A stretch of DNA of 64,000 nt from an uncultured Fidelibacterota bacterium (lineage in GTDB: Bacteria > Fidelibacterota > Marinisomatia > Marinisomatales > UBA1611): contig CAJWLO010000002.1 of the NCBI GenBank assembly GCA_913043235.1, forward strand, positions 1 to 64,000, written 5' to 3'. The notes below the pieces were generated by a model. It made no database searches. It saw nothing but the letters and a program-made list of their open reading frames with translations, and had not been told where the DNA came from. A program made the translations under genes and the position numbers. Each line of letters starts with the position of its first letter. Within the stretch, counting starts at the first letter, position 1. Below, piece by piece: positions 5,934 through 30,748 of this stretch.

Positions 5934-7751
5934 TTGACTACTCACTTAAGTTACTTTTTTATTTTCATCCTGACTCTGTCCAATGTGATCCAAGCTGAAT
6001 CTGAACAAAGTGGGATCGCTCAATTTGATGGACAGGAATTGATTGATTCGCTCAAGGTTATGAGTTTCTCTAATCCAAATGATGCTGTTGATTTTGCCTT
6101 CGAGATTCTGAAATTATATCCAAGTATCCGACCCAATAAATCTATTGCTAATGTCTTCTCTATATTAGGTGAAATATATCAGGCTAAAGGTTTATCGTTA
6201 CAGGCCTTAGAGTATTACACTGAAGCTGAAAGGGAAAATGTAGAAAGCGGGGGTTTACAAGAATTTCCCTGGTTGAAAGTGAATATGGGCAATGTTTATT
6301 TCTCTGAAGGATTGATAGAAAAATCCCGCAGTAAATACCTTGAAGCGTACAAAATATTTTCAAATTATGAGGATTCAATTAATAAAAATAATAATCTTGC
6401 GGGACAAGCCGTTTGCCAGAACAACTTAGGTATGATTGAACAGGGACTGAATAATTTTACCAATGCTCTTTTACATTTTAACCAGGGACTGGCGGTTAGA
6501 TATACTATGGACAGGCCGTTGGACCTGGTCCATTCCTACCTGAATATTGGTCAATTGTACTTAGAATGGGGGAAAACTGATTCTGCTATACATTACTTTG
6601 ACAGGGCTGACTCAATCACCCACAGCTATAATGCTCAAGACCATAATTATAAGCAGAATCATGAATGGGGGAAAAAAATCAATCCCGAATTATCCAGACG
6701 TTACGCCGGCAAAGGTCAAGTATTCCGGGCCAACCTGCGGTTGAGATTGGGACAACCAGCAGAAGCTTTTGTTTATTACAAAAGGTCCATAGAATATTAT
6801 CAGGCCTGGCCTAGGGATTATATACATGTCTTGGGTTTAACTGCAGATTTATTTCTGACCTTGAATAAGCCTGATTCTACTATTAAGTATTTAGAACAGG
6901 GTCTCCTTAGAGCTTCTGAAAAGGGGTTATTAGGCCAGGAGCTAAATCTTCTGCAAAAGAAAAGAGAAGTTTTGTCTATGATAGGTGATTACAAGAGTTC
7001 AAATACAACAGCAGAAAAAATTATTACATTAAAAGAACAGCAAATTTCAGGCCAAATGGATGACATGCTTTACAACTTAGAATTAAAAAAAGACTTGATG
7101 GCTAAACGGCGGGAAGTAAAACTGGAACAGGCTCATTCTCAGAAGAACATGTTGATTTCTATATTTGGATTTTCTGTACTGATCCTCATCTCGCTTAATT
7201 TTTATAGCAGGCATATCGCTTCGCAGCAAGAAAAGAAAATTGCAAATCAGGAAAAATGGGTGGCTGAGAGAGATCGATATATCGCTGAGCAGGAATCATT
7301 AATGACCCGCTCAGAACTTGATTCCAAGGAGAAGGAACTCAGTTCCATGTCGGCATATATTCTTCAGAAAAATGATCTTTTATATACCCTTAAAAAGGAA
7401 GTGGACTATCATGTAAATCTGCTGCCAAAAGACGAGCAGAAAATATTCCGCAGCTTGCGTTCCCAGCTTAATTCAAGTATTGAAGCTGATACAGACTGGG
7501 AAGAGTTTGAGAAAAAATTTACAACTGTTTACCCCGGGCTTTTAAAGACATTAGCATCTAGTTATCCACAGTTGACTTCTTCTGATCTGAAACTTTGTAC
7601 TTATCTGCATATGAACCAAAATACAAAAGAAATGGCCCAGCTTACGGGGCTTTCTGTTCGAGCCTTGGAAAGCAGGCGTTATCGATTGCGAAAAAAACTT
7701 CAACTGGATTCTGGCACTGATTTGGTGACTTTTTTGCATACTATTAGGTAG
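5934..7751 (+). CDS. TPR membrane regulator with C-terminal LuxR-type HTH
   Basis: The TTG start is the only usable one: the frame opens at 5904 and no ATG or GTG gives the signal-like segment 'YFFIFILTLSNVIQA'. Residues about 40-370 form TPR-like helical repeats ('SILGEIYQAKGL', 'NNLGMIEQGLNNF', 'LNIGQLYLEWGKTDSAI'). A transmembrane helix lies at about 405-423 ('MLISIFGFSVLILIS'), followed by a coiled coil (430-500) and a C-terminal GerE/LuxR HTH at about 540-605 ('TKEMAQLTGLSVRALESRRYRLRKKL'). This layout, with periplasmic TPRs, one helix and a cytosolic DNA-binding domain, is known from Bacteroidota-type regulators that sense envelope signals. The small gene at 7979 looks like a second copy of its C-terminus. 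Targets are unknown; the nearby surface operon is a fair guess. Confidence 0.82.
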   Translation: MTTHLSYFFIFILTLSNVIQAESEQSGIAQFDGQELIDSLKVMSFSNPNDAVDFAFEILKLYPSIRPNKSIANVFSILGEIYQAKGLSLQALEYYTEAERENVESGGLQEFPWLKVNMGNVYFSEGLIEKSRSKYLEAYKIFSNYEDSINKNNNLAGQAVCQNNLGMIEQGLNNFTNALLHFNQGLAVRYTMDRPLDLVHSYLNIGQLYLEWGKTDSAIHYFDRADSITHSYNAQDHNYKQNHEWGKKINPELSRRYAGKGQVFRANLRLRLGQPAEAFVYYKRSIEYYQAWPRDYIHVLGLTADLFLTLNKPDSTIKYLEQGLLRASEKGLLGQELNLLQKKREVLSMIGDYKSSNTTAEKIITLKEQQISGQMDDMLYNLELKKDLMAKRREVKLEQAHSQKNMLISIFGFSVLILISLNFYSRHIASQQEKKIANQEKWVAERDRYIAEQESLMTRSELDSKEKELSSMSAYILQKNDLLYTLKKEVDYHVNLLPKDEQKIFRSLRSQLNSSIEADTDWEEFEKKFTTVYPGLLKTLASSYPQLTSSDLKLCTYLHMNQNTKEMAQLTGLSVRALESRRYRLRKKLQLDSGTDLVTFLHTIR

Positions 7752-7852
7752 TACAAAAGATATACAGGCATAACGTTTAACGCTCCATAACTTGTAATCT
7801 TAAATATTCCATGGATTTGCCGCAGATTGTTAATGATATATTATATAAAAAA

Positions 7853-7882
7853 ACTACTTCTAATTAAATAAATACAAGTAGT
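7853..7882. promoter_or_regulatory. Inverted repeat between the two LuxR-HTH genes
   Basis: ACTACTT at 7853-7859 and AAGTAGT at 7876-7882 form a perfect 7-base inverted repeat with a 16-base AT-only spacer, about 100 bases before the stand-alone HTH gene. LuxR/GerE proteins bind as dimers to such sites, so this could be an autoregulatory operator. In an AT-rich stretch it could also be chance. Confidence 0.25.
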
Positions 7883-7978
7883 ATATAATATCCATAAAAA
7901 ATCAATTTTATCATTATCAGATCTTTATGCGTGGTATTGCCGTACCATAATCCTAATAAAGGATTTATAAAATCAACC

Positions 7979-8251
7979 ATGAGTTCTGATAATACATGGG
8001 CAAATTTCTTTTCTCAATTCTCCCAGACACAGGGGGATTTTATCCAGGCATTGACATTAACATTTCCAGATCTGAGTTCTTCTCAATTTAGAGTTTGCAG
8101 TTATCTGAAGGCTGGGTACAATACCCGAGAGATTGCAGAAGAGATGAGTCTATCTGTTCGTTCTGTTGAAAGCCATCGATACAGGATAAGAAGAAAACTA
8201 GGTGTAGGTAAATCAGAAAATCTGGCCATGTATATACATAGCTTACATTAA
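7979..8251 (+). CDS. Stand-alone LuxR/GerE HTH protein, 90 aa
   Basis: I start it at ATG 7979 (MSSDNTW). An in-frame GTG at 7931 would add 16 residues that do not look like protein. The whole product is one DNA-binding unit: a helical lead-in ('FPDLSSSQFRVCSYL') and a GerE HTH ('TREIAEEMSLSVRSVESHRYRIRRKL'). It aligns along its full length with the last 90 residues of the TPR regulator just upstream: WANFFSQF against WEEFEKKF, the same S-V/L-RS/A-V/L-E-S-H/R-RYR core, and the same 'IHSLH'/'LHTIR' end. It looks like a partial duplication that lost the sensor. It could bind the same sites or dimerise with the parent protein. Confidence 0.75.
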   Translation: MSSDNTWANFFSQFSQTQGDFIQALTLTFPDLSSSQFRVCSYLKAGYNTREIAEEMSLSVRSVESHRYRIRRKLGVGKSENLAMYIHSLH

Positions 8252-8408: not shown

Positions 8409-10007
8409 ATGAGAAATTATTTTATTTTTTTTATTTTCGCTCTTATAGTTATCACCATTATGAATTGTGATGATTCTAGTATTGCAATTCCTGGTAATTA
8501 TAAAGATCTGGATCAGAAAAACCCGGTAAATGGCGGTGTTGACTGGTATGAAGGGTTTGAAGGTGAGCAGGGCAGAGGGAAAATAGATGAGAATAGTCAA
8601 TCTGGTGTTCCCCTGGGAGCGCTCAATGTGGAAGATGAGAATCCAGATGATGAACATTCATTTACAATTGTTGATCAGACACCAATTTCATCAGCTTTTG
8701 CTATAGCAAAAGTGGAGAATGATTGGGTATTAAAACTAAATACCGATGCCCTTGATTATGAAGCACTCATCTCCAGTAATCAATCCAGTGATTTAACTGT
8801 TTCTATCAGGGCCACTGATGATAGTATAGAAAAATTATCAGGTGATTTCGAGACTACTATTTCTGTAAAAAATGTAAATGAAAAACCAGGTTTTACAAAT
8901 ACCTGGATTATCCCGACATCTGCAAATGAAGGTTACCCCTATGGATTTGATATAGACTGGGATGATCCTGATGCAGGTGATAACCTTGTTTTCACAGTGC
9001 CGGAAAAACCTGGATGGATTACTGCGGATGCCGCCGGTGTTCTTTCAGGCACTCCGGGGTCGAGTGATGTTAGTGGGACTAATGATGTAAGGCTTGTGGT
9101 TACTGATGAAGGCGGCTTGTATGCACAGCATGACTTCACAATTAATGTAATTGGCAACCTGCCACCTTATTTTACAGGTAGCCGGATTACGACTGCTTTA
9201 GGTAACCTTTTATATGAGCATCAAGTTACATGGAATGATCCCAATCCAAATGATCAGCTTACTTTTTCGGTAATATCACACCCCGCTTGGCTTTCATGGG
9301 ACTCTAACGGAAATCTAAGTGGAACTCCTACCGAGAATGATGTGGGTGTTACCAATACTGTTGTAATATCAATTGCAGATCAATTAGGGGCTTTTGAGAG
9401 CAGTCAATTTAATATCGTTATCAATGATTTAGTTTCTGATGACTTTTTGATTGAAGATAATAGCAATTTGGTCGCATATGCTAAAATATCAGACATAACA
9501 CCGTCTCTTTCAGAAGATGCTACTCTAAACTTATCAGATTCTGAAACAATTTGGGCCACTTCATCTACTCAAGTATCTAGTACAACCTATACTAATAATG
9601 TAGGCACAACTTATACATTTTCTAGTTCTGGTACCATTTACACATATAGTATTAGGGCAAGTCTTAGCAGAGATGCCCGTGGCGAATGTTATACAATGGG
9701 TAAAATAAGGGCGTCATCTCTAAGTGGTTTTCATTACTCTGTCTCAGCAGTGATTGATAACTCTGGTGAAGATGGCCAGACTCAGTTAGAAGTATACTGC
9801 AAAAATTATTATACAGGGGCTTCTATATATAATACTAATAGTAATTACAATATTGCTACTGATCAAAAACTTATAAATCAATCTGGTGATATTACTGATC
9901 CAGGAGAATACGAATTTTTCATAAAATTAGGTATTCGCGATCTGAATTCTGATACAGCCCAGGATATACCCGATGCTAGCTTTACATTAACCCTTGAAAA
10001 AATATAA
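8409..10007 (+). CDS. Lipoprotein with cadherin-like and Ig-like domains
   Basis: The first gene of a tight five-gene operon. The N-terminus is a lipoprotein signal: a hydrophobic run, then 'ITIMNC' with Cys at about residue 20, so it should be lipid-anchored. Residues about 70-160 resemble a cadherin repeat (acidic 'DENPDDEHSF', 'TDALDYEA', 'VSIRATDDS', 'VKNVNEKPGF'). Residues about 160-250 and 250-345 are two putative Ig (He_PIG) domains, each with a 'P.W...D..G.LSGTP' core. The last 180 residues are Ser/Thr/Tyr-rich beta structure that I cannot name. These folds usually bind calcium and other proteins or sugars at the cell surface. Its place directly before a GldL-like gene is where gldK, also a lipoprotein gene, sits in Bacteroidota gldKLMN operons. 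The sequence is unrelated to GldK. Confidence 0.72.
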   Translation: MRNYFIFFIFALIVITIMNCDDSSIAIPGNYKDLDQKNPVNGGVDWYEGFEGEQGRGKIDENSQSGVPLGALNVEDENPDDEHSFTIVDQTPISSAFAIAKVENDWVLKLNTDALDYEALISSNQSSDLTVSIRATDDSIEKLSGDFETTISVKNVNEKPGFTNTWIIPTSANEGYPYGFDIDWDDPDAGDNLVFTVPEKPGWITADAAGVLSGTPGSSDVSGTNDVRLVVTDEGGLYAQHDFTINVIGNLPPYFTGSRITTALGNLLYEHQVTWNDPNPNDQLTFSVISHPAWLSWDSNGNLSGTPTENDVGVTNTVVISIADQLGAFESSQFNIVINDLVSDDFLIEDNSNLVAYAKISDITPSLSEDATLNLSDSETIWATSSTQVSSTTYTNNVGTTYTFSSSGTIYTYSIRASLSRDARGECYTMGKIRASSLSGFHYSVSAVIDNSGEDGQTQLEVYCKNYYTGASIYNTNSNYNIATDQKLINQSGDITDPGEYEFFIKLGIRDLNSDTAQDIPDASFTLTLEKI

Positions 10008-10023
10008 AAAGAGGAAATAAATA

Positions 10024-10431
10024 ATGAAAATTAGACAAGATATGAATGCCAGGACAGCTATGGTATATGGTGGAGCAGCATTTCTTTTGGTGATTGTTGG
10101 CTTTAGGTCAATTGTGGCTACTATTGATCCTGATCATATCGGGGTCATGACCTACTTATCGATCATTGCCATCTTACTGGAATTTGTACTACTTATTTTC
10201 TATGCTCAAAGTATATACAATCTTGGGGATGAAGAAGGAGGAGGAGACAGCCATGGGCAAACCAGTAAAAATGTTGGCACTATGGATAGCAAAGAATTAT
10301 CAGAACTGACTGCTGCGGTAACTAAAGTTGCAGAAATGGGAGAAGGATTATCGAATCTTGCAAATGATAGACTACGCGACGAGGTGAAAAAAGAAGTAAA
10401 TGATATTCTCACCAGAGCTATTAAGAAATAG
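10024..10431 (+). CDS. Small two-helix membrane protein, GldL-like topology
   Basis: A strong GAGGAAAT ribosome site precedes the ATG, 16 bases after the previous gene. The protein has two N-terminal transmembrane helices (about residues 12-33 and 40-62) joined by a short acidic turn, then a cytosolic tail of about 70 residues that is mostly charged helix. Helix 1 contains Arg28 and helix 2 contains Glu53, both inside otherwise hydrophobic sequence. GldL of the type IX secretion/gliding motor has this layout, with charged residues inside its two helices, including an essential Glu in helix 2. It is shorter than GldL (135 against roughly 200 residues). The next gene is single-pass with a large periplasmic part, as GldM is. 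I infer a proton-driven motor pair; no sequence search supports it yet. Confidence 0.5.
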   Translation: MKIRQDMNARTAMVYGGAAFLLVIVGFRSIVATIDPDHIGVMTYLSIIAILLEFVLLIFYAQSIYNLGDEEGGGDSHGQTSKNVGTMDSKELSELTAAVTKVAEMGEGLSNLANDRLRDEVKKEVNDILTRAIKK

Positions 10432-10441
10432 GTCCTAAGTT

Positions 10442-11875
10442 ATGAAAAAAGTTGAAGTTTATTTCCTGATAAATCTTGGTGCGATATTAAGCCTTTTTGC
10501 AATTGAAGGTGAACTCTCAATATATATGCGTCGTCAGAATGATATTCTTCTCACTGCTGCAGATGATAAACTTAAGACTTTGGTAGAAATCAACAATGTG
10601 AAGTCAAACTTTGAGAATGAAGAATTTTACCAGTTAACTTTTGATCTGGATGGAGAATATGAAAAAGGCACCGTTGAGTTTGAGCCCAGTTTTACTACCC
10701 CAATACTTGATGTGGGATCTGGCGGAGATGTTGCCATAAATGATTCTATGATCTGGGAATTGGATTCTGTGAGTTATGAAGCCATGGAAGGATCAAAATA
10801 TGCTTTAAATGTAAAACTATCATCGGTGGGTGAAGAATATATCAATAAACCCTATGATGTGAATCTAGGAATAAAATTTATCCCTGAAATTTCAGAAGAA
10901 ACTGTTGACGGCTGGGGTGAAGCCTTTGGTGATTATAAGGTTGCTGATAAGCTGTACAATATTATCAATGAAAAAGTTGCTCGAGAAGGGAAATTCGCCA
11001 TTGAAAAGATATTCGATTCCCCCGTCACCCTTATTTATATGGATGGTCTTCAGTCAGAATTTTTTGTGATTTTTGATAAGGAAAAGTATACAGTTTTGAG
11101 AGGCCTAAACTGGCAAATACCTTTCAGTGTTGGAGGTGTGAATACGGACAAGGACTTTACCGTCTCGGTAGAAGGAGGCAAGGATCTTGTGAAAGAACTT
11201 GTGAAAGGTCTGCCAAGGACTTTTCTTAAAGGAATTGGTAAAAGTGATGGCACCATTGAAGTGGTAGGGCTGAGGTCAAAGGATAAAAAATCAAGCCTTG
11301 CCAGTACAGAAGTTGTTGTTGTGGACCCTGCATATAGTTCACCCGCTGAAGAAAATGAAATATACACTGGTGAACAATATGTTTTTGACAGCAGGGTCAA
11401 AGATGTGGATCGGGATCGAATTTCTGTCAAAGTCTCCGGCACCGCAATGGGGGCGAATGTCTATAATTCATATAGAGCAAATTTCACTCCTAAGAAAGAA
11501 GGGAAGCTTAAGCTGGAAACGTTTGTTGATGGTGTTGCTGTCCGTAATCTTGTGCACAATGTCACCGTTAAAAAGATTCCACCGCCTAAGCTTACCTTTA
11601 AACGTTTGGGAAAGCGTACCAATAATATGCTTTTGACTGTTACCACATATGGCAATAAGAATGGAAAAAATAAGGTTGTCCCGCTGTCTGGTGTATATGG
11701 ACGGCTTGAAGAAGAACAGAAGGAGAAGAGAGTAGGAAATAGGAGAGTAGTAAAATACAGTTTTGAGATGGATGAACCACAGTTTGGGTCCACTACTACG
11801 ATTAAGATTAAGGTGATAGACAAATATAAAAAGCAATCAGTCTCTGATAATGAATTTGAATACTATGATAACTAG
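10442..11875 (+). CDS. Single-pass periplasmic beta-domain protein in GldM position
   Basis: One N-terminal hydrophobic helix (residues about 6-26, with 'FLINLGAILSLFAIEGEL') is followed by about 450 extracytoplasmic residues. These are mainly beta structure. The last 180 residues contain two Ig-like stretches ('EIYTGEQYVFDSRVKDVDRDRISVKV' region and the 'PPPKLTFKRL' region). A helical insert lies near residues 155-200. The size (477 against about 510 residues), the topology and the place after a GldL-like gene all match GldM, whose periplasmic part is a chain of Ig-like domains. I see no clear GldM signature residues, and the helix could be a cleaved signal instead. So the GldM link rests on architecture and synteny only. 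The stop overlaps the next gene by 11 bases. Confidence 0.5.
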   Translation: MKKVEVYFLINLGAILSLFAIEGELSIYMRRQNDILLTAADDKLKTLVEINNVKSNFENEEFYQLTFDLDGEYEKGTVEFEPSFTTPILDVGSGGDVAINDSMIWELDSVSYEAMEGSKYALNVKLSSVGEEYINKPYDVNLGIKFIPEISEETVDGWGEAFGDYKVADKLYNIINEKVAREGKFAIEKIFDSPVTLIYMDGLQSEFFVIFDKEKYTVLRGLNWQIPFSVGGVNTDKDFTVSVEGGKDLVKELVKGLPRTFLKGIGKSDGTIEVVGLRSKDKKSSLASTEVVVVDPAYSSPAEENEIYTGEQYVFDSRVKDVDRDRISVKVSGTAMGANVYNSYRANFTPKKEGKLKLETFVDGVAVRNLVHNVTVKKIPPPKLTFKRLGKRTNNMLLTVTTYGNKNGKNKVVPLSGVYGRLEEEQKEKRVGNRRVVKYSFEMDEPQFGSTTTIKIKVIDKYKKQSVSDNEFEYYDN

Positions 11876-13619
11876 GAAAATAGTAAGGATTCTTATTTCA
11901 CTGTTGACAGCGGTGATTTTTTCACAGGGTGAATCGCTCTATTGGGAAGTTGCGGACCCTATCGTAAATAGTGAATTCATCGAAGCATATATTAATAAGC
12001 TAATAGAAACTGATAAATTTGAAGACAATACGATCCAGGCATCTCATTCGATCATTATCCAGATGGCTCTTATGCCTGATGCAGTTGAACTTAAAAAACT
12101 GAAAGCCAAGAACTATCAGATGGGAGAATATCAGTCCTTCCTAATGGATCAGGTAGAAAAAATGGATCCATCGCTCGTTGAGCATCTTATGTCTAGGGAA
12201 TATAAATGGAAAGATGTGAGCAGGAGGGACCTTTCAGAGCTGGAAATGTATAGTACGCTGGATAATGTACTGCAGGAACGAAGTTTTAAGGATGCGAGAG
12301 ATGCGTTCTGGTGGACAAATTCTCAGTTTGATGTCTCTACCGATATGACTGCTTTCATCCGGCAGAAGACAGGCAGCCTAGCATTTCGTTTGGAGTCTGG
12401 CCTGCCAGTCCTGGGTCTATATCGGCACCTTTCAAAAAATCTAAACCTTGGGATCTCCAATGATATTGCCAGTACTTATATTATTATTCCCGGCGTAACC
12501 ACCACTAGAATTGCTGCAGGGATTGAACATCCCGTCGAGGCCGTATATGGGGCAGGATTCAAATTTGATACCCATGCACTTGGTGGACAGATAAATTACA
12601 TGGATGTTGGCGTTGATTTTGAAGCGAAAAATACTTACAGCCGTAAACACTTGGTTATACCTGCTTCCAGCGGTGTACTTTACTGGAGCAATACGTTCGG
12701 CCTGAATAGAAAAGTACTTACAGAATATGGGACTAGTGTCAAGGATCAGAAAAAGGCGAAAGAAATTGCTGCTCGGGAGCTTACTAGGTCCAGGCAATGG
12801 AAAACTAAAAAAGGTACCTTATATGAGGGGCGATTTGTAAAAGTTGAGAATGAAAAAGCATATATCGTCATGGAAAAAAATTCCCAGGCCCATAAGGAAG
12901 CAGAAAAGGGACGCAAGTGGACCTCCCGATCTGGAAATGAGATCCATGCATCGTTGGATCAGCAGGGAAAAACCGAAGTGATCCTGCTTAGAAAGAAGGA
13001 TAAAAAACCAGTAAAATTAAAAATTGCTGATCTGAGTGACAGTGATCAGAAATTTCTGAAGAAATTGGTTTGGGACGGTAAAAAGGTTGGATCTCTCTCC
13101 CTACAGTCACTTAATGATGAAGATCAAAAATTAATACGTATCGCGAATGCTGTTATACGAGAAAGATCGGGAAAAGGAAGAGAAATTAAGGTTAGTCAGC
13201 CGTTTGCTTCTTTAAGGCTAAAAGCTGGTCTATCTTTTACTCAATTTATTCATGGACGCATAGATTTGGCTAATCCTGATGTAGTCGATGATGTAGATAT
13301 TTTTTCCATAACAGACAGAATTAACGGGGCAGAAGCATTAGGGTTTTTTGTAAAAGTGGAAGGAGTAACGGATAATAAAAAAAGCAAATCCTATTTCCAG
13401 TTTAATTCATCGGGAAGCGGGTTTAAGTCTGTTGGTTTTGGACTAGAACATAATGTATGGAAAAGGATTAACCTGGGTGTGGACTGTGTTCTTTATCCTC
13501 GGGGAAGTGGTATTGAGTTTCGGTCTGATAAGGAATATCCAGATAAAACATGGACATGGCATCCTGGAGGTAAAGGTGGTGTATTGCTTTTTGCTCCCTA
13601 TATGGCGATCCAATTTTAA
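11865..13619 (+). CDS. Outer-membrane protein with central SHD1-like module
   Basis: I use ATG 11865 because it begins the signal peptide directly (MITRKIVRILISLLTAVIFSQG). An in-frame ATG at 11850 would add five residues. The N-terminal 140 residues are helical. The region from about 150 to 300 is beta-rich and barrel-like ('NLNLGISNDIASTYIIIPG'). Residues about 309-401 look like Sla1 homology domain 1 modules: 'RQWKTKKGTLYEGRFV' with a second 'RKWTSRSGNEIHA', ending 'IADLSDSDQKFLKKL'. The C-terminal 160 residues return to barrel-like strands and end 'APYMAIQF', with a terminal Phe. SHD1 modules are peptide-binding in eukaryotes and occur in bacteria with unknown roles. An SHD1 set inside a likely barrel is unusual. 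It is the fourth gene of the operon. Confidence 0.6.
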   Translation: MITRKIVRILISLLTAVIFSQGESLYWEVADPIVNSEFIEAYINKLIETDKFEDNTIQASHSIIIQMALMPDAVELKKLKAKNYQMGEYQSFLMDQVEKMDPSLVEHLMSREYKWKDVSRRDLSELEMYSTLDNVLQERSFKDARDAFWWTNSQFDVSTDMTAFIRQKTGSLAFRLESGLPVLGLYRHLSKNLNLGISNDIASTYIIIPGVTTTRIAAGIEHPVEAVYGAGFKFDTHALGGQINYMDVGVDFEAKNTYSRKHLVIPASSGVLYWSNTFGLNRKVLTEYGTSVKDQKKAKEIAARELTRSRQWKTKKGTLYEGRFVKVENEKAYIVMEKNSQAHKEAEKGRKWTSRSGNEIHASLDQQGKTEVILLRKKDKKPVKLKIADLSDSDQKFLKKLVWDGKKVGSLSLQSLNDEDQKLIRIANAVIRERSGKGREIKVSQPFASLRLKAGLSFTQFIHGRIDLANPDVVDDVDIFSITDRINGAEALGFFVKVEGVTDNKKSKSYFQFNSSGSGFKSVGFGLEHNVWKRINLGVDCVLYPRGSGIEFRSDKEYPDKTWTWHPGGKGGVLLFAPYMAIQF

Positions 13620-13634
13620 GGTAGAGTGCATTAA

Positions 13635-15926
13635 ATGATTGAACATATTCGTTCCTATTTTTTTATAATTGCTGTTGCCATTGTTTTATTGACAACTGCA
13701 GGGCGGGCACAAAATGTCCAGGCGGTGAATGATAATATCATGCTGAAAGAGGATGAAGCAAAGATTATTGATGTACTGAAAAATGATAAGTTAGAGAGTC
13801 GTGATAACCTAGATTTGATTATACTCTCCACGCCTAGTCTTGGTACTGCAGAACTTCAGGGGTTTAATATATCATTTATTCCCAATGCAAATGTAAGTGG
13901 CACTGATGAATTCAAATATTCAATCGATGATGGGTTTTCTTCTGATACAGCAAAAATTAAGATCACTATTGTTCCAATGAATGATGTGCCAATTTCTATA
14001 GATCTAGAAAACAACAGTATAGCTGAGAATGGGGCTGACGTGACCCTCATAGGAGAATTATCCACGATAGACCCTGATTTAGATGATTCGTTTGAATATT
14101 CTTTCTCTGATGAAGGAGAAAATGATAACGCATATTTTGAAATCAGGGATAGATCCATTTATTCAAATATAAGTTTCGATTATGAGTTGCGGGATAGTTA
14201 TAAACTTATGGTAACGAGTAAGGATAAAAGTGATAAAAAGGTTACCAGTGAAATTTTAGTAAATATAATTGATGTGAATGAAGCACCGAGATTTATAGAA
14301 AATCCTGAGTTGACAATTTCTCATCCAGAGGAGAATGAAAAAATAGTTGCAAAATTGATGGCAGAAGATCCAGATCTTGATCAAGATTATGTTAAGTATA
14401 AGGTGGTTGGCGGCGATGATAAAGGACGTTTCAAGATTCTTCGTAGTGGAGAATTGGCGTTTCTCAGAGAACCTGATTATGAATCACCCAAAGATGCAAA
14501 TGGGGATAATACCTACCATGTCAAATTTAGGGTAACAGATTCCAAGGATAAAAACCTATTTGTTGAAGGATCGGCTTCGATAACTATTGCGGACGAGATA
14601 GAAAAATCTATCGAGAGCCTTGACAGCAGAAAATACATTGCTTGGACCGTAGATCATATGCCATATCATATCTTGATGGAAGATGCTATCGATGATTATA
14701 TAAGTCTACGATTTGCAGTTGGGGCAGACGATGATGGTGCTTCATCCATTGAAGATGGTGATGATGAATTTATTAGCCAAATGCACCCAAGTGATCAGAT
14801 TATTATTGTGCAGGAAAAGGGGAACACAGAACAGATTCATCAGATTTGGTATGGTAATGGTGTAAATTATACAATTATTAATCGAGAAAGAGTTGACTGG
14901 GTTTTAAGCCAGGATATCCAGCAGGTTCTTATAGAAAAAAGCCAGTACCTTAATAGTGAGTCTGAGGTTGTTTTCTTTCAGAACGAAAGTGAGAGACTTT
15001 TGGCGGGCTACAGTTCCAAATTCGCTGTCTGGCATCCAAATAATTTTATGATGTCCTTGCAAGGGTTCTCCATGCGGTCTAACCTGGTTCAATATGCAGC
15101 AAATATGTCTGTCGGAAATGAATTGATTGGCTTACCAGGTGTCACCGCAGGATCTACAGAGCTTGGTGTGGCCACCCGAAATTCAGAATTTGGATTTCGC
15201 TTGCCAGTCGGTTTCAGTTTAGGTTCACTGGGGAAGTTGGATGATCCAAAGTATTTGAGCTCAGATTACCCAGGCCTTTATAGTAAAATCAATATTGATA
15301 ATATGTTTTCAACTAGGACCGACTTTCATGCGTTAATGGGTTTCTCGTTTTATCCTAAAACTATTGGGAGTCCGATAAAGAACACGAATTTTTTCAATAC
15401 AGATAGTGTTAAGGAAGAAGATCGTTACATAAATATCTTGGATATGTATGCCTTGATGGCTACCACGGTTGAAGTACCTCTACAATTGCCATTTTTTGCT
15501 AAAATGACAGCAACTCCCGGATTGCATTATCTGAAAGTTGCCCACAGAAGCAAGAGTGAAGAAGGCCTTTACGATCGTACCTTTCACCAGTCGGGATCAA
15601 AAGTAATTGATATTGATGAGGGTCGTTCATTTAGCCGCTACTGGGGCTTATTCGTTCGTTTTGATATTCTGGGAAAGATCGGTCAAAAACCGGAATTCCT
15701 TGAAAGAGTGAAATATTTTGATTTTATCAATATTAGCGACGTTCCTTTTTATGAAATATCCTTCCAGTTGATTTCATCGCTTAATACTATCACAACCTTA
15801 AACTTAAATATTTATGATAACTTGGCATTTACCATTACAAGGTATAATACAACTGGAGATATTCAAGGTAACTGGCTACCGGAAAAAAATACCTGGTTTG
15901 GGCTGAAATATCGCGGGAACTTTTGA
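13635..15926 (+). CDS. Cadherin-domain surface protein with barrel-like C-terminus
   Basis: It has a signal peptide (residues 1-25, ending GRAQ). Residues about 28-115 are a bacterial tandem-Ig/VCBS-type domain ('AVNDNIMLKEDEAKIIDVLKND', 'PNANVSGTDEFKYSIDDG'). Residues about 116-215 and 216-318 are two cadherin-like repeats with calcium-type motifs ('TIDPDLDDSFEY', 'NIIDVNEAPRF', 'AEDPDLDQDYVKY', 'DYESPKDANGDN'). From about 320 on the protein is novel to me, with long acidic loops ('GADDDGASSIEDGDDEF'). The last 250 residues alternate like beta strands and end 'KYRGNF', with a terminal Phe, as outer-membrane barrels do. It is the last gene of the operon. The shared cadherin-like folds at both ends of the operon suggest its surface proteins bind one another or a common ligand. 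Confidence 0.68.
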   Translation: MIEHIRSYFFIIAVAIVLLTTAGRAQNVQAVNDNIMLKEDEAKIIDVLKNDKLESRDNLDLIILSTPSLGTAELQGFNISFIPNANVSGTDEFKYSIDDGFSSDTAKIKITIVPMNDVPISIDLENNSIAENGADVTLIGELSTIDPDLDDSFEYSFSDEGENDNAYFEIRDRSIYSNISFDYELRDSYKLMVTSKDKSDKKVTSEILVNIIDVNEAPRFIENPELTISHPEENEKIVAKLMAEDPDLDQDYVKYKVVGGDDKGRFKILRSGELAFLREPDYESPKDANGDNTYHVKFRVTDSKDKNLFVEGSASITIADEIEKSIESLDSRKYIAWTVDHMPYHILMEDAIDDYISLRFAVGADDDGASSIEDGDDEFISQMHPSDQIIIVQEKGNTEQIHQIWYGNGVNYTIINRERVDWVLSQDIQQVLIEKSQYLNSESEVVFFQNESERLLAGYSSKFAVWHPNNFMMSLQGFSMRSNLVQYAANMSVGNELIGLPGVTAGSTELGVATRNSEFGFRLPVGFSLGSLGKLDDPKYLSSDYPGLYSKINIDNMFSTRTDFHALMGFSFYPKTIGSPIKNTNFFNTDSVKEEDRYINILDMYALMATTVEVPLQLPFFAKMTATPGLHYLKVAHRSKSEEGLYDRTFHQSGSKVIDIDEGRSFSRYWGLFVRFDILGKIGQKPEFLERVKYFDFINISDVPFYEISFQLISSLNTITTLNLNIYDNLAFTITRYNTTGDIQGNWLPEKNTWFGLKYRGNF

Positions 15927-16000: not shown

Positions 16001-16658
16001 ATGAATCTACTCAAATATATTTCCCAAATATCATTTTATGTTCTATCAACAGTATTATTGAAAACACATCATTTAAAATAAATTACTTACCATTGAGTAT
16101 TGATAGTGTGCTGATGGTGCCACTTTATATATATTGATATTAAATCCGGATGCAGCTAATAAGTTTGTAACAGAAGCTCAAGAAGTGAGCTTGACCTTTG
16201 GGTTTGGGCATATTCCAGATATTGATAATATTAATGGGAGTGAGTATGATCTCCGAATATCGCAAGATATTACAATTGTTACAGAAAGTAAGGGTAGTTT
16301 TTCAGGTATACCTGATGGGTGGGGGTACGTACCTGGGATCACATTGGTAATACATTATACAACTATGGGAAATAATACGGATTTTGGAATTCCAAAGGAT
16401 TTATCATTGTATCCAGTGTATCCCAATCCCTTCCATCCTACAACTGTTATAAGGTATGATATCCCAAAAAATAGTGATGTAAGTTTTTCGGGATATGATT
16501 TGCGAGGCAGGTTGGTAAAAAGGTTAATGAGCAAAAGGTCTAATCTTGGAAGGTACCATTACAGATGTGTACCAGATATGGTTACTTCTGGTGTATATAT
16601 ACTAAGGATGAAAACTAAAGAAAAAGTATTCAATCAGAAGGTCACTTACATTAAATGA
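16001..16658 (+). pseudogene. Broken T9SS-cargo gene (signal peptide and tail in different frames)
   Basis: A strong ribosome site (AGAAGGAAG) precedes ATG 16001, which encodes a signal-like peptide (MNLLKYISQISFYVLSTVLL) that stops at 16081 after 26 codons. A different frame is open from about 16107 to 16658. Its 174-codon part from the TTG at 16134 encodes a beta-rich segment and a degraded T9SS tail: 'VYPNPFHPTTVIRYDI' (His in place of Asn), 'SGYDLRGRLV', 'TSGVYILRM' and 'FNQKVTYIK'. The two halves together would make a small T9SS-exported protein, so I read this as one gene broken by a frameshift and stop. The alternative, a true 174-residue protein from a TTG start, would lack any export signal. 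Confidence 0.55.
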
Positions 16659-16984: not shown

Positions 16985-19900
16985 ATGCAAAAAATAAGAA
17001 TCATTGCTGTACTGATAGTTTGTTCATTTTTACTTGCACAGAGCGGTAACAGCAATAAAAAGAAAAAAGTGTATCGTACCCAATGGGGGACGTTTGTTAC
17101 AGCACCGGATACACCTGAAAAAAATCAGGTTACAAAATCAAAGTCGGAGATGGAAAAGATTCAGAAAAGGATCCAGTCAAATCTTAAGAAGACTTCCCGG
17201 AATCACCGCCAGGAATTGGAAAATCTAAAGGGAGAATATGATTCTCAAATGGCTACGATGCAGTTAGATTATAATTCACAGTTAGCCAAAATGCAGGAAC
17301 AGATCAACCTATTATATCTATTAACGGAAAAAAAGGCAGACACTGTCTATACAGTCAGCCATGATACCATCACTGTTCATGATTCCACTGTCGTTTATGA
17401 TACAACTTTTATTTATACCAATGCCACCACAACGGTTTATGATACAGCAGTTTTTTACGATAGTCTGTTTGTCTATAATTATGATACTACGACCATAGTA
17501 AATACAAACTTTGATACTGTAGTGGTTTATGACACATCATTTGTTCATACATATGATACTACCTATGTAAATCTGGAAAAGACGAATTATGATACCACTG
17601 TTGTTCTTGACAGTTTATATATTTTTACCTTTGATACTACATTTATAAAAGATACGCTATGGGTTTTTGCTTATGATACTACCACCGTATATGATACTGC
17701 CTGGGTATTTGCTTATGACACAACCTTTGTGCGGGATTCTATCTGGGTTTTTGCCCATGACACCATGGTGGTGTACGATACAACCACAGTGGTGAATAAT
17801 GACACAGTTACAATACACACCTATGCCACCAATTTCAAACCAGAAATTATTGATGGACAGCAAGCCCAATTCCCAATTTGGCAATCTTTGGATGATGCGA
17901 TACAGGCCCGCAATGCTGGTGATGACCGGGCCCAGGAATGGATTAATGAAGCACTTTATGCCGCTAATGGTGATTGGAATCGAGCCAAAGATGAATACAA
18001 AAAATTTCAGAGTATTTATTCATCCGCCACGGTAAAAAGTATTTTAGGGCAACCGTCTAACCCTGAGTTCATTGGTCCATTGGAAGCGCAGGATGCAATG
18101 AAATATCGTTCCGTGACATATGACACGCTTCGTTTTTTAACTGTAGATACCCTAGTGGTCCAGGATACGATTCGGGACCTGGTTAGGCAAGCAATCATAA
18201 CTTATGATACGAGTGTAGTAACTAATCATAGTGAAGTCATCGAAAATACGACTCCATCTGAGCATGAGATGATGGTTCGTTATCATGATAACGGTCGTTT
18301 AAAAGAACGGGGGCTTATGAAAGGTTTAAAACGTAACGGTACTTGGATCTTTTACAGCTCAGCCGGGAAGGAAGTTCGTAGAACTACTTATGACATGGGT
18401 CGTATCACAAAAGATGAGGATCTTGTAAATAACGGGAAAAATACCCTACGGAATAAACCGCAAACAACAAGGCCAAAGGCTATGGCCAAAGCAGTGCATA
18501 CAAAGTATGATACTCCTCCTAAGCCCAAGTCGCGAATTCTTCCGGTAGTAGATGTGGCCCATGGAGGAGCTACAGTAATTACACAGTGTTTGGTAGATAG
18601 AGATGGATATGTGGAGCAGGTCAATGTGATAAAAAGTAGCGCAATTCCAGCCTTGGACCAAGCAGCAATTTCGGCGATAAAAAACACTGACTTCAAACCT
18701 GCAACAGTTAATAATGTGCCAACTGCAGTATGGATAGAGCAGGAAATTCTATTTCCAGCCAATCCTTTGGAATCTGTTTTAAGTCCTGGAATTACCAGAC
18801 AAGATTTTCATGCGCTCTATCTTGGCCAGATTGTCAAAGCGTTGGATCAAGAAGGTGAACAATTATCGGAGTTGCAACAGGATGAGTTCATGGAGAAACT
18901 CAAAACTTCTATTGACGAAACGTATTTTGAGATAGAAGCTTTATATTTAGAAGAAGAAGTAGCTTTTCTAAAAAATGAAATACAGAATTTTATTTTTCAT
19001 ATGGATAATGAAGAAGGTACTCTCCAGAGTGGAGTACAATTATATCGGGCTACGTCAGAATCCAGGATTACACTCATTGATCAAGATGGGACTGTCTTGG
19101 CAGATTCACACTTGGATGAAGATGGGATTAAATCCATGGATAATCATGCCTCCCGTCCTGAAGTCTTGGCATCAACAATATCCGAATATGGGGTTGCAGT
19201 TCGACACAGTGAAACTTTGGAAAAGAATTTAATATATGTTGCCCATGCTGTTGATAAAGAAGATGATCACAGACGAATTTATGCACGTTTTTCCAAACCA
19301 CTTGGTGTTATCCGGGAACAGCGTGCCTTACGAATATATGAGCAGGAGGTAATTAGTGCTCTCTTAGCTAGCAAGGTAAATTTAGCACAAAACAACCAAT
19401 CCGGATTTTTGGCCAATTATATACAAGGTTTGAAAGATCATTTGGCAGAGCTCGGATATGGAGTAGATATAGAAGCCAATGAACAAATCATTCGTTCCTA
19501 TACAGATAAATTAGAAGCAAAGAGTGGGGAAATAGCGGGTAACCTAAAGCGGGAGATCGATACTTTTATCAATTATCTTATTACGGTTTCTAAAGGAGGC
19601 TTACATTCTTCAGTGGCTTCTTATGCCCAGTCTGCAGATGTACGAATCACCTTGATTGATGCTAATGGGGTAGTTCTTACTGATTCAGATCTGGACCTAC
19701 TCCAATTATCTAAGATGGATAATCACATCAATCGTTTGGAAGTGGTACAATCCAACACGCTCCCATACGGTACCGTATCCCGGTTCAGCAATACACTACA
19801 GCAAAAATTTGTTTATGTTGCTCGTCGTCTCCCAGAGACGATGCAGGAAGCACGATATGTGCGTTTGGCTAGATCATTACGGGCAGATTATTCCCGGGTC

Positions 19901-21322
19901 CATATGGAAGAAGATGAACTCTTGAATTTATATGTATCTCTAATTGAAAAGAGTTTTGGCCGAGCTGGGGTGAATTTCACCGATGAGAAACGAAAGGATT
20001 TTAGCAATAGTTTTCAAATGGTGGTTAGAAAACGTAATGCCAAAGTACAAATGAATCACAAATTGAAGCACTACCGACTCTATATAGAGGAAATCAATCA
20101 AGCATTGGATGTAGTCCAATTAATGACTAATTCAGATCAAGAAGAGCTATTTGCAAAAATTTACCAGGAAAATGTGATCCGTGAGTTCAGTTCTAGTAAA
20201 AGTGTAAATGTAGAATTAAATGAAGAATCTGTGAGAACATATCTTAAAAACGAGGCAGTAAAAGAAGAACAACGAAAAAAATTGGTTCTGAAAGAAGGTT
20301 TAATTGTTACCTACCATGACAACGGCCGTGTTAAAGAAAAAGGTATGTATATTGCTGGAAGAAAAGAAGGGGAATGGTATGTTTATAGTTCAAGAGGAAA
20401 ACTAATAAAAACTGTTGATTATAAAAAAGGTAAAGCAATTGCCACTAACGCTCCCGATAAATTCAAGGATATCGCGACCTACCATGAAAACGGTCGTATC
20501 AAAGAACAGGGAATAACCCGAAATGGCAAAAGAGATGGTGAATGGAAACTATATAATGCACGGGGTAAATTGGAGACAGTGAGGGTTTATGCAAGGGGGA
20601 AAATCGTTCGTCAAGATAGACCAGAAAAAATGGAAGAAGTTGCTGAATATCATGATAATGGACGTATTAAGGCCCAAGGAAATATTAAAAATGGAAAGAA
20701 GGACGGTGTTTGGAAACTATACAGTAGCAGAGGAAAAATGATAAAATCAATCACCTATGCCAGCGGTGAAATTATCAGGGATACAGAATCGTCTAAAAAA
20801 GATTTGTTGCAACCTCTGCGAGAAGGAGCCCATGTGGACTATCATGACAATGGTCGTATTAAGATATCAGGCACTTTTAAGAAAAACAAGAAATCTGGAG
20901 AATGGCGAGAATACGATAAACGGGGAACCATTATCTCCATTACCATTTATTCTGATGGGGAGATATTATTCCAACAGAATCCTAATATAGTTAAGGCCTA
21001 TACTTCTTATCATGATAATGGTCGTCTGAAAGAGCAGGGTATGTTAAAAGGCGAAAAGAGAGATGGTGAATGGTATTTATACAGTAAACGTGGGAAACTA
21101 TTGCGGAAAACAAACTATTTTCAGGGTGCAATCATTAATCAGAATAGTACCAGAGTCATTAATTCATTTGTTACCTACCACAAGAATGGTTTTGTTAAAG
21201 AGGAAGGTATATTAAAAATGGGACAGCGTGATGGGATCTGGAAGCGGTATGATGATGATGGTGAACATATTGAAACAGTGACCTATAACAATGGTAGAGT
21301 TTTGAGCCGAGAAAAGGTATAA
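16985..21322 (+). CDS. Giant exported mosaic: TonB-C, sensor-like and MORN_2 repeats
   Basis: The signal peptide is residues 1-19 (ending LLAQ). A coiled coil follows at about 45-115. Residues about 118-285 are a low-complexity chain of 'VYDTT'/'FAYDTT' units, likely a long extracellular stalk. Residues about 428-472 hold the first MORN_2/YwqK repeat ('YHDNGRLKERG'). A TonB C-terminal-like domain lies at about 521-590 ('GGATVITQCLVDRDGYVEQVNVI', 'AISAIKNTDFKPA'). Two segments near 691-770 and 885-960 match the PhoR-type extracellular sensor of histidine kinases ('RITLIDQDGTVLADS', 'MDNHASRPEV', 'RHSETLEKNLIYVA'), yet no kinase follows. Each is flanked by long helices. Six more MORN_2 repeats (about 1105-1445; 'YH.NGR.KE.G', 'DGEW.LY') end the protein. 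It has its own promoter and a strong terminator. The combination is new to me; function unknown. Confidence 0.8.
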   Translation: MQKIRIIAVLIVCSFLLAQSGNSNKKKKVYRTQWGTFVTAPDTPEKNQVTKSKSEMEKIQKRIQSNLKKTSRNHRQELENLKGEYDSQMATMQLDYNSQLAKMQEQINLLYLLTEKKADTVYTVSHDTITVHDSTVVYDTTFIYTNATTTVYDTAVFYDSLFVYNYDTTTIVNTNFDTVVVYDTSFVHTYDTTYVNLEKTNYDTTVVLDSLYIFTFDTTFIKDTLWVFAYDTTTVYDTAWVFAYDTTFVRDSIWVFAHDTMVVYDTTTVVNNDTVTIHTYATNFKPEIIDGQQAQFPIWQSLDDAIQARNAGDDRAQEWINEALYAANGDWNRAKDEYKKFQSIYSSATVKSILGQPSNPEFIGPLEAQDAMKYRSVTYDTLRFLTVDTLVVQDTIRDLVRQAIITYDTSVVTNHSEVIENTTPSEHEMMVRYHDNGRLKERGLMKGLKRNGTWIFYSSAGKEVRRTTYDMGRITKDEDLVNNGKNTLRNKPQTTRPKAMAKAVHTKYDTPPKPKSRILPVVDVAHGGATVITQCLVDRDGYVEQVNVIKSSAIPALDQAAISAIKNTDFKPATVNNVPTAVWIEQEILFPANPLESVLSPGITRQDFHALYLGQIVKALDQEGEQLSELQQDEFMEKLKTSIDETYFEIEALYLEEEVAFLKNEIQNFIFHMDNEEGTLQSGVQLYRATSESRITLIDQDGTVLADSHLDEDGIKSMDNHASRPEVLASTISEYGVAVRHSETLEKNLIYVAHAVDKEDDHRRIYARFSKPLGVIREQRALRIYEQEVISALLASKVNLAQNNQSGFLANYIQGLKDHLAELGYGVDIEANEQIIRSYTDKLEAKSGEIAGNLKREIDTFINYLITVSKGGLHSSVASYAQSADVRITLIDANGVVLTDSDLDLLQLSKMDNHINRLEVVQSNTLPYGTVSRFSNTLQQKFVYVARRLPETMQEARYVRLARSLRADYSRVHMEEDELLNLYVSLIEKSFGRAGVNFTDEKRKDFSNSFQMVVRKRNAKVQMNHKLKHYRLYIEEINQALDVVQLMTNSDQEELFAKIYQENVIREFSSSKSVNVELNEESVRTYLKNEAVKEEQRKKLVLKEGLIVTYHDNGRVKEKGMYIAGRKEGEWYVYSSRGKLIKTVDYKKGKAIATNAPDKFKDIATYHENGRIKEQGITRNGKRDGEWKLYNARGKLETVRVYARGKIVRQDRPEKMEEVAEYHDNGRIKAQGNIKNGKKDGVWKLYSSRGKMIKSITYASGEIIRDTESSKKDLLQPLREGAHVDYHDNGRIKISGTFKKNKKSGEWREYDKRGTIISITIYSDGEILFQQNPNIVKAYTSYHDNGRLKEQGMLKGEKRDGEWYLYSKRGKLLRKTNYFQGAIINQNSTRVINSFVTYHKNGFVKEEGILKMGQRDGIWKRYDDDGEHIETVTYNNGRVLSREKV

Positions 21323-22383: not shown

Positions 22384-23430
22384 ATGAGTATGAATAACGA
22401 TACTAAAACTGAAAAATCTGTCGAAAGTAGGCAGAAAATCCGTTCTTCCGCACTTTTAGACCAGTTCGGCCGTACCTTTGATTATGTTCGGATTGCAGTG
22501 AATGAAAAATGTAACCTACGTTGTATCTACTGCATGCCTGAAAATGGCGTACCCTTTAAACCTGAAAATAATTTGCTTAACCCGGATGAAATCAAACAAC
22601 TCGTTAATATTTTGGCTAGCTTGGGTGTTAAAAAAGTACGTTTTACTGGTGGAGAGCCATTATTGCATAATGATATTATTGAATTAATCCAAACGGCAGC
22701 ATTTACACCAGGAATTCGATCTGTGCATCTAACAACAAATGGCGTTTTGCTTAAATCAAAAATATCAGAATTACAGGATTCAGGGTTAACCGGTGTCAAT
22801 ATCAGTTTAGATACTTTGGATTCTGAAAAATTTGAGCAGATAACTCGCCGTAAAAATTTATATAATGTAATGTCTGGATTAGATGCTGTCTTAGCATCAG
22901 GACGATTTAAAACAAAATTAAATGTGGTTGTTATGCGGAATTTTAATGAGGATGAATTGGATCGCTTTGTTGGAATGACCAAACATCGTGATATTGTTGT
23001 ACGTTTCATTGAATTGATGCCCTTTGATTCACAGCAGATCTGGAAAACAGGTAAATTCTATGGTGCAGATCAAATTATAAGGGATATTAAGAATGCATTC
23101 CCACACCTGGTTATCGATAAGGGATCAAGGACGGAGCACAACATTTACAGAATACCAGGCTACCGAGGGAAAATCGCTGTGATACCTTCATATTCCCGGA
23201 ATTTATGCGGGGCCTGTAATCGTATCCGTATCACGGCAGATGGCAAAATATTAAACTGTCTATTTTCAGGTCAAGAAACCAGTCTAATTGATCGATTGCG
23301 TGGAGGCGCAAGTGATGGAGAAATTGCTGAGTTAATAAAAACGGCAATGTGGCATAAACTGGAAAATGGCTGGCAAGCTCAGAAAACAGGTGAAGAACAA
23401 AGAAACAGTATGACCCAGATCGGAGGATGA
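22384..23430 (+). CDS. moaA: GTP 3',8-cyclase (first step of Moco synthesis)
   Basis: A radical-SAM enzyme that rearranges GTP to 3',8-cyclo-GTP. The N-terminal cluster motif 'CNLRCIYC' (C-x3-C-x2-C) lies near residue 40, 'RFTGGEPLL' follows near residue 82, and the C-terminal cluster motif 'CGACNRIRITADGKILNC' lies near 275. The protein ends 'IGG', the conserved Gly-Gly tail that enters the active site. Length (348) is slightly above the family norm because of about 18 extra N-terminal residues. ATG 22390 is an alternative start two codons on. It leads a six-gene Moco operon and is preceded by a promoter and a structured leader. Confidence 0.97.
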   Translation: MSMNNDTKTEKSVESRQKIRSSALLDQFGRTFDYVRIAVNEKCNLRCIYCMPENGVPFKPENNLLNPDEIKQLVNILASLGVKKVRFTGGEPLLHNDIIELIQTAAFTPGIRSVHLTTNGVLLKSKISELQDSGLTGVNISLDTLDSEKFEQITRRKNLYNVMSGLDAVLASGRFKTKLNVVVMRNFNEDELDRFVGMTKHRDIVVRFIELMPFDSQQIWKTGKFYGADQIIRDIKNAFPHLVIDKGSRTEHNIYRIPGYRGKIAVIPSYSRNLCGACNRIRITADGKILNCLFSGQETSLIDRLRGGASDGEIAELIKTAMWHKLENGWQAQKTGEEQRNSMTQIGG

Positions 23431-23433
23431 TTT

Positions 23434-24375
23434 ATGAAAGAATTTTCACATCTGGATAAAGATGGTAATGTTTACATGGTGGACGTTACTGAAAAACAGG
23501 TTAGTATGCGAACCGCGAAAGCAGAAGGAAAAATTTTTCTTAGTGCTGAAACGATCCATAAAATGAAGGAAGATGCTATTCCCAAAGGGAATGTGCTAAC
23601 TACAGCCAAGTTGGCAGGAATCCAAGCTGCTAAGAAGACATCAGAACTAATACCCATGTGCCACCAGCTTCAACTTTCTCACGTTGATTTGACATTTGAA
23701 CTAAAAAAGAAACATATTATAATTAGGTCTATTGTAAAAACAAAGGAAGCTACCGGGGTGGAGATGGAAGCATTGACAGCAGTTTCCGCGTCCGCCTTGA
23801 CAATATACGATATGTGCAAGGCATTGGATAAGGATATGGTCCTAGGTGAGATTGCACTTATAAATAAAAAAGGCGGCACATCCAGTCATACGGTCACCTA
23901 TCGGCCGCTAGTAGGTATTATTACTATGAGTGATGGTGTGGCTGCGGGAAGCAGGGAAGACAAATCTGGGAAAATATTATCTGATGGTTTTAAACGGGCA
24001 GGTTGTTCCATCCAAAAACAGCTGGTATTGCCTGACGGTTCGGAAGAACTTAGAGAAACCATCCAATCCTGGATTGATTCTGGAGTAGAACTGATTATGA
24101 CTACGGGAGGAACCGGCCTGGGACCGCGGGACCTAACCATTTCTTTAATGGAAACAATGTTCAATTCCCGTTTACCAGGGATCGAACAAGCTCTCCATGC
24201 TTATGGCAGGGGAAAACTGGCGACAGCCAGCCTGTCTCGTCTGGCAGCAGGCGTAGTTGGTCCCGCCATCGTAATTTGTTTACCCGGAAGCCCCGGGGCA
24301 GTGAGGGATGGCCTTGTGGTATTGATTCCAGCCATTTTTCATGCCTACCACATGATGAAGGGTGAAGGACATTAA
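23434..24375 (+). CDS. Fused MoaC-MogA/MoaB Moco synthesis protein
   Basis: Residues about 1-150 are MoaC, cyclic pyranopterin monophosphate synthase: 'MVDVTEKQVSMRTA', 'KKTSELIPMCHQL', 'VKTKEATGVEMEALTAVS', 'DMCKALDKDM'. Residues about 158-313 are the MogA/MoaB fold, which adenylylates molybdopterin: 'GIITMSDGVAAGSREDKSG', 'TTGGTGLGPRD', 'PGIEQALHAYG', 'LPGSPGAV'. The link between them is short and has no stop, so this is one polypeptide joining the second Moco step to a late one. Such fusions occur in several bacteria. A good GGAGGATG ribosome site precedes the ATG, 3 bases after moaA. Confidence 0.95.
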   Translation: MKEFSHLDKDGNVYMVDVTEKQVSMRTAKAEGKIFLSAETIHKMKEDAIPKGNVLTTAKLAGIQAAKKTSELIPMCHQLQLSHVDLTFELKKKHIIIRSIVKTKEATGVEMEALTAVSASALTIYDMCKALDKDMVLGEIALINKKGGTSSHTVTYRPLVGIITMSDGVAAGSREDKSGKILSDGFKRAGCSIQKQLVLPDGSEELRETIQSWIDSGVELIMTTGGTGLGPRDLTISLMETMFNSRLPGIEQALHAYGRGKLATASLSRLAAGVVGPAIVICLPGSPGAVRDGLVVLIPAIFHAYHMMKGEGH

Positions 24376-24403
24376 TGCATTTATTTTCCATTAGGCGTCT
24401 TGC

Positions 24404-26613: not shown

Positions 26614-26852
26614 AAGTTACAGTTAAATGTTTTTCTCAGGTAAAATATGCCCTGAAGGTTAATCAAATATTCTTGGATCTGGAACCAGGGCAAACGACGG
26701 CAGATGTGGAAGAAGCAGTCCGCAAACATGCCACGGGAAAGTTGGATGGTATTAGTCTGCGTATCGCAGTTAACCGCGTTTATGTACAGGAACCAGTGGT
26801 TGTAGAGGATGGCGACGAAGTTGCTCTAATTCCTCCGGTACAGGGTGGATAG
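26610..26852 (+). CDS. moaD: Molybdopterin synthase small subunit MoaD
   Basis: An 80-residue ubiquitin-fold protein ending 'IPPVQGG', the Gly-Gly tail that is adenylylated and turned into a thiocarboxylate. 'VEDGDEVALIPPV' is the family's C-terminal signature. The start overlaps the previous stop by four bases and moaE begins right after its stop. Confidence 0.94.
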   Translation: MKVTVKCFSQVKYALKVNQIFLDLEPGQTTADVEEAVRKHATGKLDGISLRIAVNRVYVQEPVVVEDGDEVALIPPVQGG

Positions 26853-27266: not shown

Positions 27267-27326
27267 ATAACTGATATGTAATTATATACAATATCCTTTG
27301 CTAAGTAGCAAGAATTCAACTTTGTC

Positions 27327-27355
27327 TTGATAATCATAAACGACTGTTATATTTT
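27327..27355 (+). promoter_or_regulatory. Possible promoter for the first hydroxylase operon
   Basis: TTGATA (27327-27332) and TATTTT (27350-27355) are 17 bases apart in the gap between moaE and the SRPBCC gene. The match is moderate. It would let the hydroxylase genes be expressed apart from the Moco genes. Confidence 0.3.
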
Positions 27356-30745: not shown

Positions 30746-30748
30746 ACC

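Follow-up and report, generated by a model that had tools for sequence, protein, structure and literature searches.

Motors of the 5:2 type are built as wheel-axle pairs. In MotAB and GldLM the two partners are encoded in one operon, and it has been stated that GldLM does not occur outside Bacteroidetes (PMC9389320). A conserved intramembrane acid of GldL, E49, is essential (PMC8986121), and domain D1 of GldM is a five-helix domain (PMC5790014). Here we describe an operon in a stretch of 64,000 nucleotides from an uncultured Fidelibacterota bacterium (assembly GCA_913043235.1, contig CAJWLO010000002.1), the whole of which is referred to as the window. The initial annotation had described this operon as a five-gene unit in which a GldLM-type motor is attached to cadherin-like surface proteins. 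We found that four of the genes form a co-inherited unit, coding for two membrane proteins, L and M, and two predicted outer-membrane proteins, barrel A and barrel B. We consider it somewhat probable that this unit is a trans-envelope machine, representing a new ion-driven motor that is GldLM-like by layout only and that is dedicated to the barrel pair.

A co-inherited unit of four genes

All five open reading frames (ORFs) of the operon were confirmed on the plus strand (Table 1). They are separated by 16, 10, -26 and 15 bp, and the tight spacing of the five genes had thus been correctly described. While the five-gene operon is real, the conserved unit is smaller and older. It comprises only genes 2 to 5, namely L (gene at 10024), M (10442), barrel A (11850) and the C-terminal 438 amino acids of barrel B (13635).

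The draft of the source genome is fragmented (2.9 Mb, 83% complete, 6% contamination). Its contig with the operon was assigned to Candidatus Marinimicrobia. The M protein was initially searched against 121 relatives and the neighbourhoods of the matches were then read. M was found in about 21-22 of these relatives, and in their neighbourhoods genes 2, 3 and 4 stay associated with one another and with the C-terminal part of gene 5. Profile searches, in which L, M and barrel A were each searched independently, cover 245 genomes of the phylum. M was detected in 41 of these (9 of the 94 high-quality genomes), although the match in one of them (G035, E 5e-4) is likely to be spurious. This count includes very divergent copies from f28 and f30 genomes, and their loci again have the gene order L-M-A-B. 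L was detected in 40 and barrel A in 38 of the 245 genomes. The three sets of genomes are essentially identical, and several of the missing cases are located at contig ends.

In each sufficiently long locus, and in several families, the four genes have the identical order. The arrangement L-M-A-B, for which the initial annotation had proposed a search in other genomes, is thus widespread in the phylum. The pairing of genes 2 and 3 has turned out to be obligate, with L adjoining M in all loci that were read. Pairwise distances between loci correlate tightly whichever two of the four proteins are compared (r 0.96-0.99, while the permuted maximum is 0.36). The four proteins are thus components of a co-inherited unit. 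Two genomes (G022 and G228) carry two copies of the module each. A named example is UBA7303, the M protein of which is 95% identical. All named relatives belong to Marinimicrobia/Neomarinimicrobiota, as found with narrow peptide patterns that do not show absence outside the phylum.

Table 1. Features of the module and its surroundings in the window (positions are those of the window).
Feature	Position	Strand	Basis
Upstream regulators, context only: TPR + LuxR-type helix-turn-helix (HTH), 5934-7751; short LuxR-type HTH, 7931-8251	5934..8251	+	Pfam
Accessory lipoprotein (He_PIG, cadherin-like), only in f1/f9 versions	8409..10007	+	lipobox Cys
L: 135-residue two-helix inner-membrane protein, proposed pentamer-type stator/wheel	10024..10431	+	two transmembrane helices
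L transmembrane helix 1, residues 12-34; Arg/Lys28 at 10105-10107	10057..10125	+	
L transmembrane helix 2, residues 41-65; invariant Glu53 at 10180-10182	10144..10218	+	
M: 477 residues, one N-terminal transmembrane helix and multi-domain beta-rich (Ig-like) periplasmic stalk	10442..11875	+	
M transmembrane helix, residues 4-25, VEVYFLINLGAILSLFAIEGEL	10451..10516	+	conserved all round
Barrel A (gene 4): signal peptide, N-domain of ~130 residues, outer-membrane beta-barrel ending in Phe	11850..13619	+	
SHD1-like insertion between two long barrel strands of barrel A	12717..13199	+	alignment; weak SHD1 match
Barrel B (gene 5): signal peptide, Big_9/cadherin extension, conserved N-domain, barrel	13635..15926	+	Pfam, alignment
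Big_9 and cadherin domains of barrel B, accessory	13722..14588	+	Pfam, alignment
Conserved 438-residue core of barrel B, paralogous to barrel A	14610..15923	+	hhalign

Topology and conservation of L and M

The two-helix layout of L with a buried Arg28 and Glu53 was confirmed, both residues being located inside the two hydrophobic helices. Glu53 is Glu in all 36 homologues, down to about 25% identity, so that the residue on whose conservation the initial annotation had made its interpretation depend is indeed retained. Position 28 is Arg in 33 and Lys in 3 of these 36 homologues. L is also invariant at Gly17, Ala18, Ala19, Gly40, Phe54, Ala61, Ile64 and Tyr65, and the conservation of this protein is far beyond chance. 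In the second helix it is restricted to a single face that includes Glu53 (S46-I50-E53-L57-Y60/A61-I64; p = 0.0016).

The transmembrane helix of M has a near-invariant Glu5 and an invariant Ser17 and Glu24. It is conserved all round, with no periodicity (p = 0.76), which argues strongly against an ordinary signal peptide. In divergent M proteins the helix is preceded by a basic N-terminal extension, which suggests that the N-terminus is located inside. Conservation of one face in L and of the complete circumference in M is what would be expected of a helix that lines a pore around an enclosed axle, and is compatible with a pentamer of L around a dimer of transmembrane helices.

In its AlphaFold2 model (mean predicted local distance difference test score, pLDDT, 78, with the helix itself below 50), M is a chain of beta domains. 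The first periplasmic region is predicted to be beta-rich with two helices. Sub-threshold matches of M to filamin and GEX2 Ig domains were considered to be a generic Ig signal. For L, matches to cation efflux/FieF families in Pfam and NCBIfam (E 0.002-0.016) are far below the cut-off and were attributed to a generic transmembrane signal.

In its general layout the pair resembles GldLM/PorLM. A protein with two helices, in which one basic and one acidic residue are buried, precedes a protein with a single helix and a long periplasmic stalk, the two are encoded together, and there are outer-membrane partners. L has two transmembrane helices and, judged by conservation, the Glu in the second helix that is typical of GldL. 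The GldM layout that had been assigned to the third gene holds for the transmembrane helix and the beta-rich stalk. It does not hold for the first of the four GldM domains, since D1 is helical, preceding the beta domains D2-D3, while the corresponding region of the M model is beta-rich. In addition, the helix of M starts with the near-invariant Glu5 where solved GldM sequences have an invariant Arg. Further differences are the lack of significant profile or fold similarity, the lack of GldK and GldN, and the nature of the partners, which are two paralogous outer-membrane barrels.

The wheel-and-axle logic with an intramembrane carboxylate, as proposed here for L and M, is shared with the 5:2 motors ExbBD, TolQR and MotAB. 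However, L has only two helices and no Pfam match, and its acid is located on the wheel protein as in GldL, while in ExbBD, TolQR and MotAB the key acid is on the axle protein.

Barrels, added domains and neighbouring genes

Expanded profiles of gene 4 and of the C-terminal part of gene 5 could be aligned over 367 columns (hhalign probability 96.5%, E 9.5e-10), and barrels A and B are therefore considered to be paralogues. Gene 4 has no match in the PDB by sequence. The best PDB matches of the AlphaFold2 model of barrel A (pLDDT 77) in Foldseek are outer-membrane porins and FadL (E 6e-6). As the TM-scores are low, this supports the class of outer-membrane barrels and no specific family. Within this limit, the predicted barrel A has the signal peptide, the barrel strands and the C-terminal aromatic residue of this class. 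Phe is the usual terminal residue of outer-membrane barrels, and it is found in 34 of 35 homologues of gene 4. Copies of gene 5 end in Phe in most f1 and f8 loci and in Asn in most of the divergent versions. The coupling of L and M to outer-membrane partners that had been suggested before is supported.

Like PorP/SprF, the barrels would be outer-membrane proteins that link an internal machine to surface proteins, but they belong to a different sequence family, and no match of barrels A and B to PorP/SprF was obtained. The position of barrel A after M, and a periplasmic domain that is proposed to receive the motor force, are reminiscent of the PorN/GldN and PorK hub. However, the N-domains of barrels A and B do not match PorN and are fused to the barrels. 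Motifs recognised by eye (WExxD and SxxDxxxxxRxF) had made GldN/PorN a candidate for these N-domains, which was rejected by hhalign, Pfam and NCBIfam.

The last gene contains Big_9 (1.1e-16) and cadherin (2.8e-13) domains according to Pfam, and the cadherin label of the initial annotation is correct for this gene. For gene 4 there is only a weak sub-cutoff match to SHD1 (best E 0.031, in 3 of 18 homologues), and the SHD1 label does not hold beyond this. In the f8, f28, f30 and G021 versions, barrel B lacks the Big_9/cadherin domains and barrel A lacks the SHD1-like insertion. Cadherin domains, SHD1 and the lipoprotein are thus found in some lineages only and are not part of the core. The N-terminus of an outer-membrane barrel is normally periplasmic and, counted from the C-terminal strand in the predicted secondary structure of barrel A, the SHD1-like insert is on the periplasmic side as well. 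For these reasons the Big_9/cadherin and SHD1-like domains may be located between M and the outer membrane rather than on the surface. Among the terms that had been applied to the last two genes, outer-membrane protein is thus adequate while surface protein is too strong.

The lipoprotein has a He_PIG domain (7e-15) and a sub-threshold cadherin match in Pfam. It had been likened to the lipoprotein of gldKLMN, but it is absent from most lineages with the module and has Ig/cadherin domains. With the lipoprotein being restricted to f1 and f9 loci and the barrels not matching PorN, the gene set does not correspond to a gldKLMN operon. The lipoprotein is the fastest-evolving member, with local identities of mostly 28-36% to relatives in which L and M are 62-77% identical. 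Directly after the lipid-bearing Cys, the lipoproteins have a conserved acidic stretch in common, e.g. CEDVEVAYPGNNQ (PGNNQ-like), which is possibly a sorting signal. In most f1 loci the TPR gene is retained upstream of the module.

At f8-type loci, five genes precede the module (L037:497-5131, L065:3045-7418, L072:2799-7433). They code for a Zn-ribbon protein, an unknown protein, a ParA-like ATPase, another unknown protein and a protein with weak similarity to PilM/GspC, and possibly represent a complex resembling a pilus or a type II secretion system. Por_Secre_tail domains of the type IX secretion system (T9SS) are present in the window. A small ORF with a T9SS sorting domain (16051-16658) is the decayed C-terminal remnant of a T9SS-type protein of 1112 amino acids, which is intact at the same place in a sister genome (L023:12401-15736). 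A protein of 1445 amino acids (16985-21322) combines a low-complexity region of Tyr-Asp-Thr repeats with a TonB_C domain, a Cache-like domain and MORN_2 repeats. The region 22384-40578 codes for a molybdenum cofactor synthesis protein and two large subunits of the xanthine dehydrogenase type (28313, 38101), which suggests a molybdo-hydroxylase cluster.

Proposed motor and alternative readings

From conservation and topology we infer that L and M have motor activity. Several copies of L and a dimer or oligomer of M would assemble into a 5:2-type motor in the inner membrane that is driven by ions. Glu53, with Arg28 nearby, would take up and release protons while ions pass between L and the central helix of M, and this would move M. 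The Ig-like stalk of M would span the periplasm and push or turn the periplasmic N-domains of barrels A and B. The output would be mechanical work on the barrels, by which either the barrels are moved or gated, or what they carry is moved. In the lineage to which the window belongs, Ig/cadherin and SHD1-like domains would have been added to the barrels, and the fast-evolving lipoprotein would have joined the operon, probably as cargo or adaptor. We further suggest, with more doubt than conviction, that the module is a separate lineage of ion-driven trans-envelope motors in Marinimicrobia, which is not homologous to MotAB, ExbBD or GldLM and has its own paralogous barrel effectors.

Several points weigh against such a motor. 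For neither L nor M could similarity in sequence or fold to a known motor subunit be detected. Comparison by hhalign with five solved GldL and several GldM sequences from the PDB gave P = 0.11 for L and P = 0.64 for M, even with expanded alignments. Profile searches of the PDB with L and M did not retrieve any Gld protein, and neither GldM nor PorM is among the 50 best Foldseek matches of the M model, which consist of Ig chains of a generic kind and of further, unrelated proteins with several domains. Moreover, a Glu/Arg pair that is conserved within the membrane can also have a role in packing or transport. The module occurs in only about one-sixth of the genomes of the phylum, no consistent extra partner that would reveal the output was seen in the module loci, and no genetics or biochemistry was found in the literature for this group.

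L and M might instead energise import or export through the barrels, in the manner of ExbBD/TonB, without a role in adhesion or movement. The partners are outer-membrane barrels with porins and FadL as the best fold matches, and in f30 genomes a TonB_C-domain protein of about 300 amino acids is encoded directly upstream of L (L094:7642-8529 and equivalents). However, this neighbour is limited to one genus, no plug domain was recognised in the barrels, and M has a long Ig stalk where ExbD has a short domain. We consider a transport function to be unlikely.

Even less probable is that the pair is a remote true member of GldLM/PorLM which powers the T9SS or gliding. The topology is equal and the charges are comparably placed (K27/E49 in GldL, R28/E53 in L). 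The best local profile match between L and GldL, which is insignificant, puts Glu53 on Glu49 of GldL. Column-shuffle tests of the transmembrane region of L against GldL gave p = 0.001 with gaps, which were implausibly many, and p = 0.12 without gaps; these results are contradictory and are treated as not significant. For the helix of M the comparison with GldM gave p = 0.79. Among the proteins of the window, neither TIGR03513 (GldL) nor TIGR03517 (GldM) was found in an NCBIfam scan. Together with the profile, PDB and fold searches described above, the deviating D1 and the lack of a PorN match in the barrels, this led us to reject the assignment of L and M to GldLM. With regard to function, the pair may nevertheless operate in a GldLM-like manner. 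Nothing points specifically to gliding.

A relation to the T9SS could be sought in SprA, which is present in the source genome and in 113 of the 121 relatives. Since M occurs in far fewer of them (about 22), a role of the module as the general T9SS motor was rejected. In G021, barrel B is followed by a PorE/CHU_0125-like protein of 976 amino acids (L042:4641-7568; E 1e-36 to 1e-42) with PD40, carboxypeptidase-regulatory, M23 peptidase and OmpA domains, and a link of the module to the T9SS via this OmpA neighbour is possible. The check for a canonical gldKLMN that had been proposed did not reveal GldL, GldM or GldN above the cut-off in the source genome. In the 121 genomes nothing above the cut-off was found with TIGR03517 and TIGR03513, but no control genome matched either, so that absence is not proven by this result; both models do recognise solved GldL/GldM fragments. 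TIGR03523 (GldN) had nothing above the cut-off in 61 genomes. The T9SS motor of Marinimicrobia is either too divergent for these models or something else.

A static tether or scaffold that links the inner membrane to the two barrels would be permitted by the topology alone, the ion coupling of L and M being deduced, but an invariant buried Glu with Arg/Lys across about 75% divergence and a near-total conservation of the M helix would be unusual for a mere anchor. We regard this as the least probable explanation.

Trans-envelope motors driven by protons or sodium are known in a handful of cases only. SprA is near-universal in Marinimicrobia, yet no GldL, GldM or GldN was recognised above the cut-off, and this sharpens the question of how the T9SS is powered in these organisms. 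If the proposed ion-driven motor is real, the set of known motors would be widened by a co-inherited four-gene unit from a mostly uncultured marine phylum. Its design would be unusually compact, with the motor being directly paired with two barrels.

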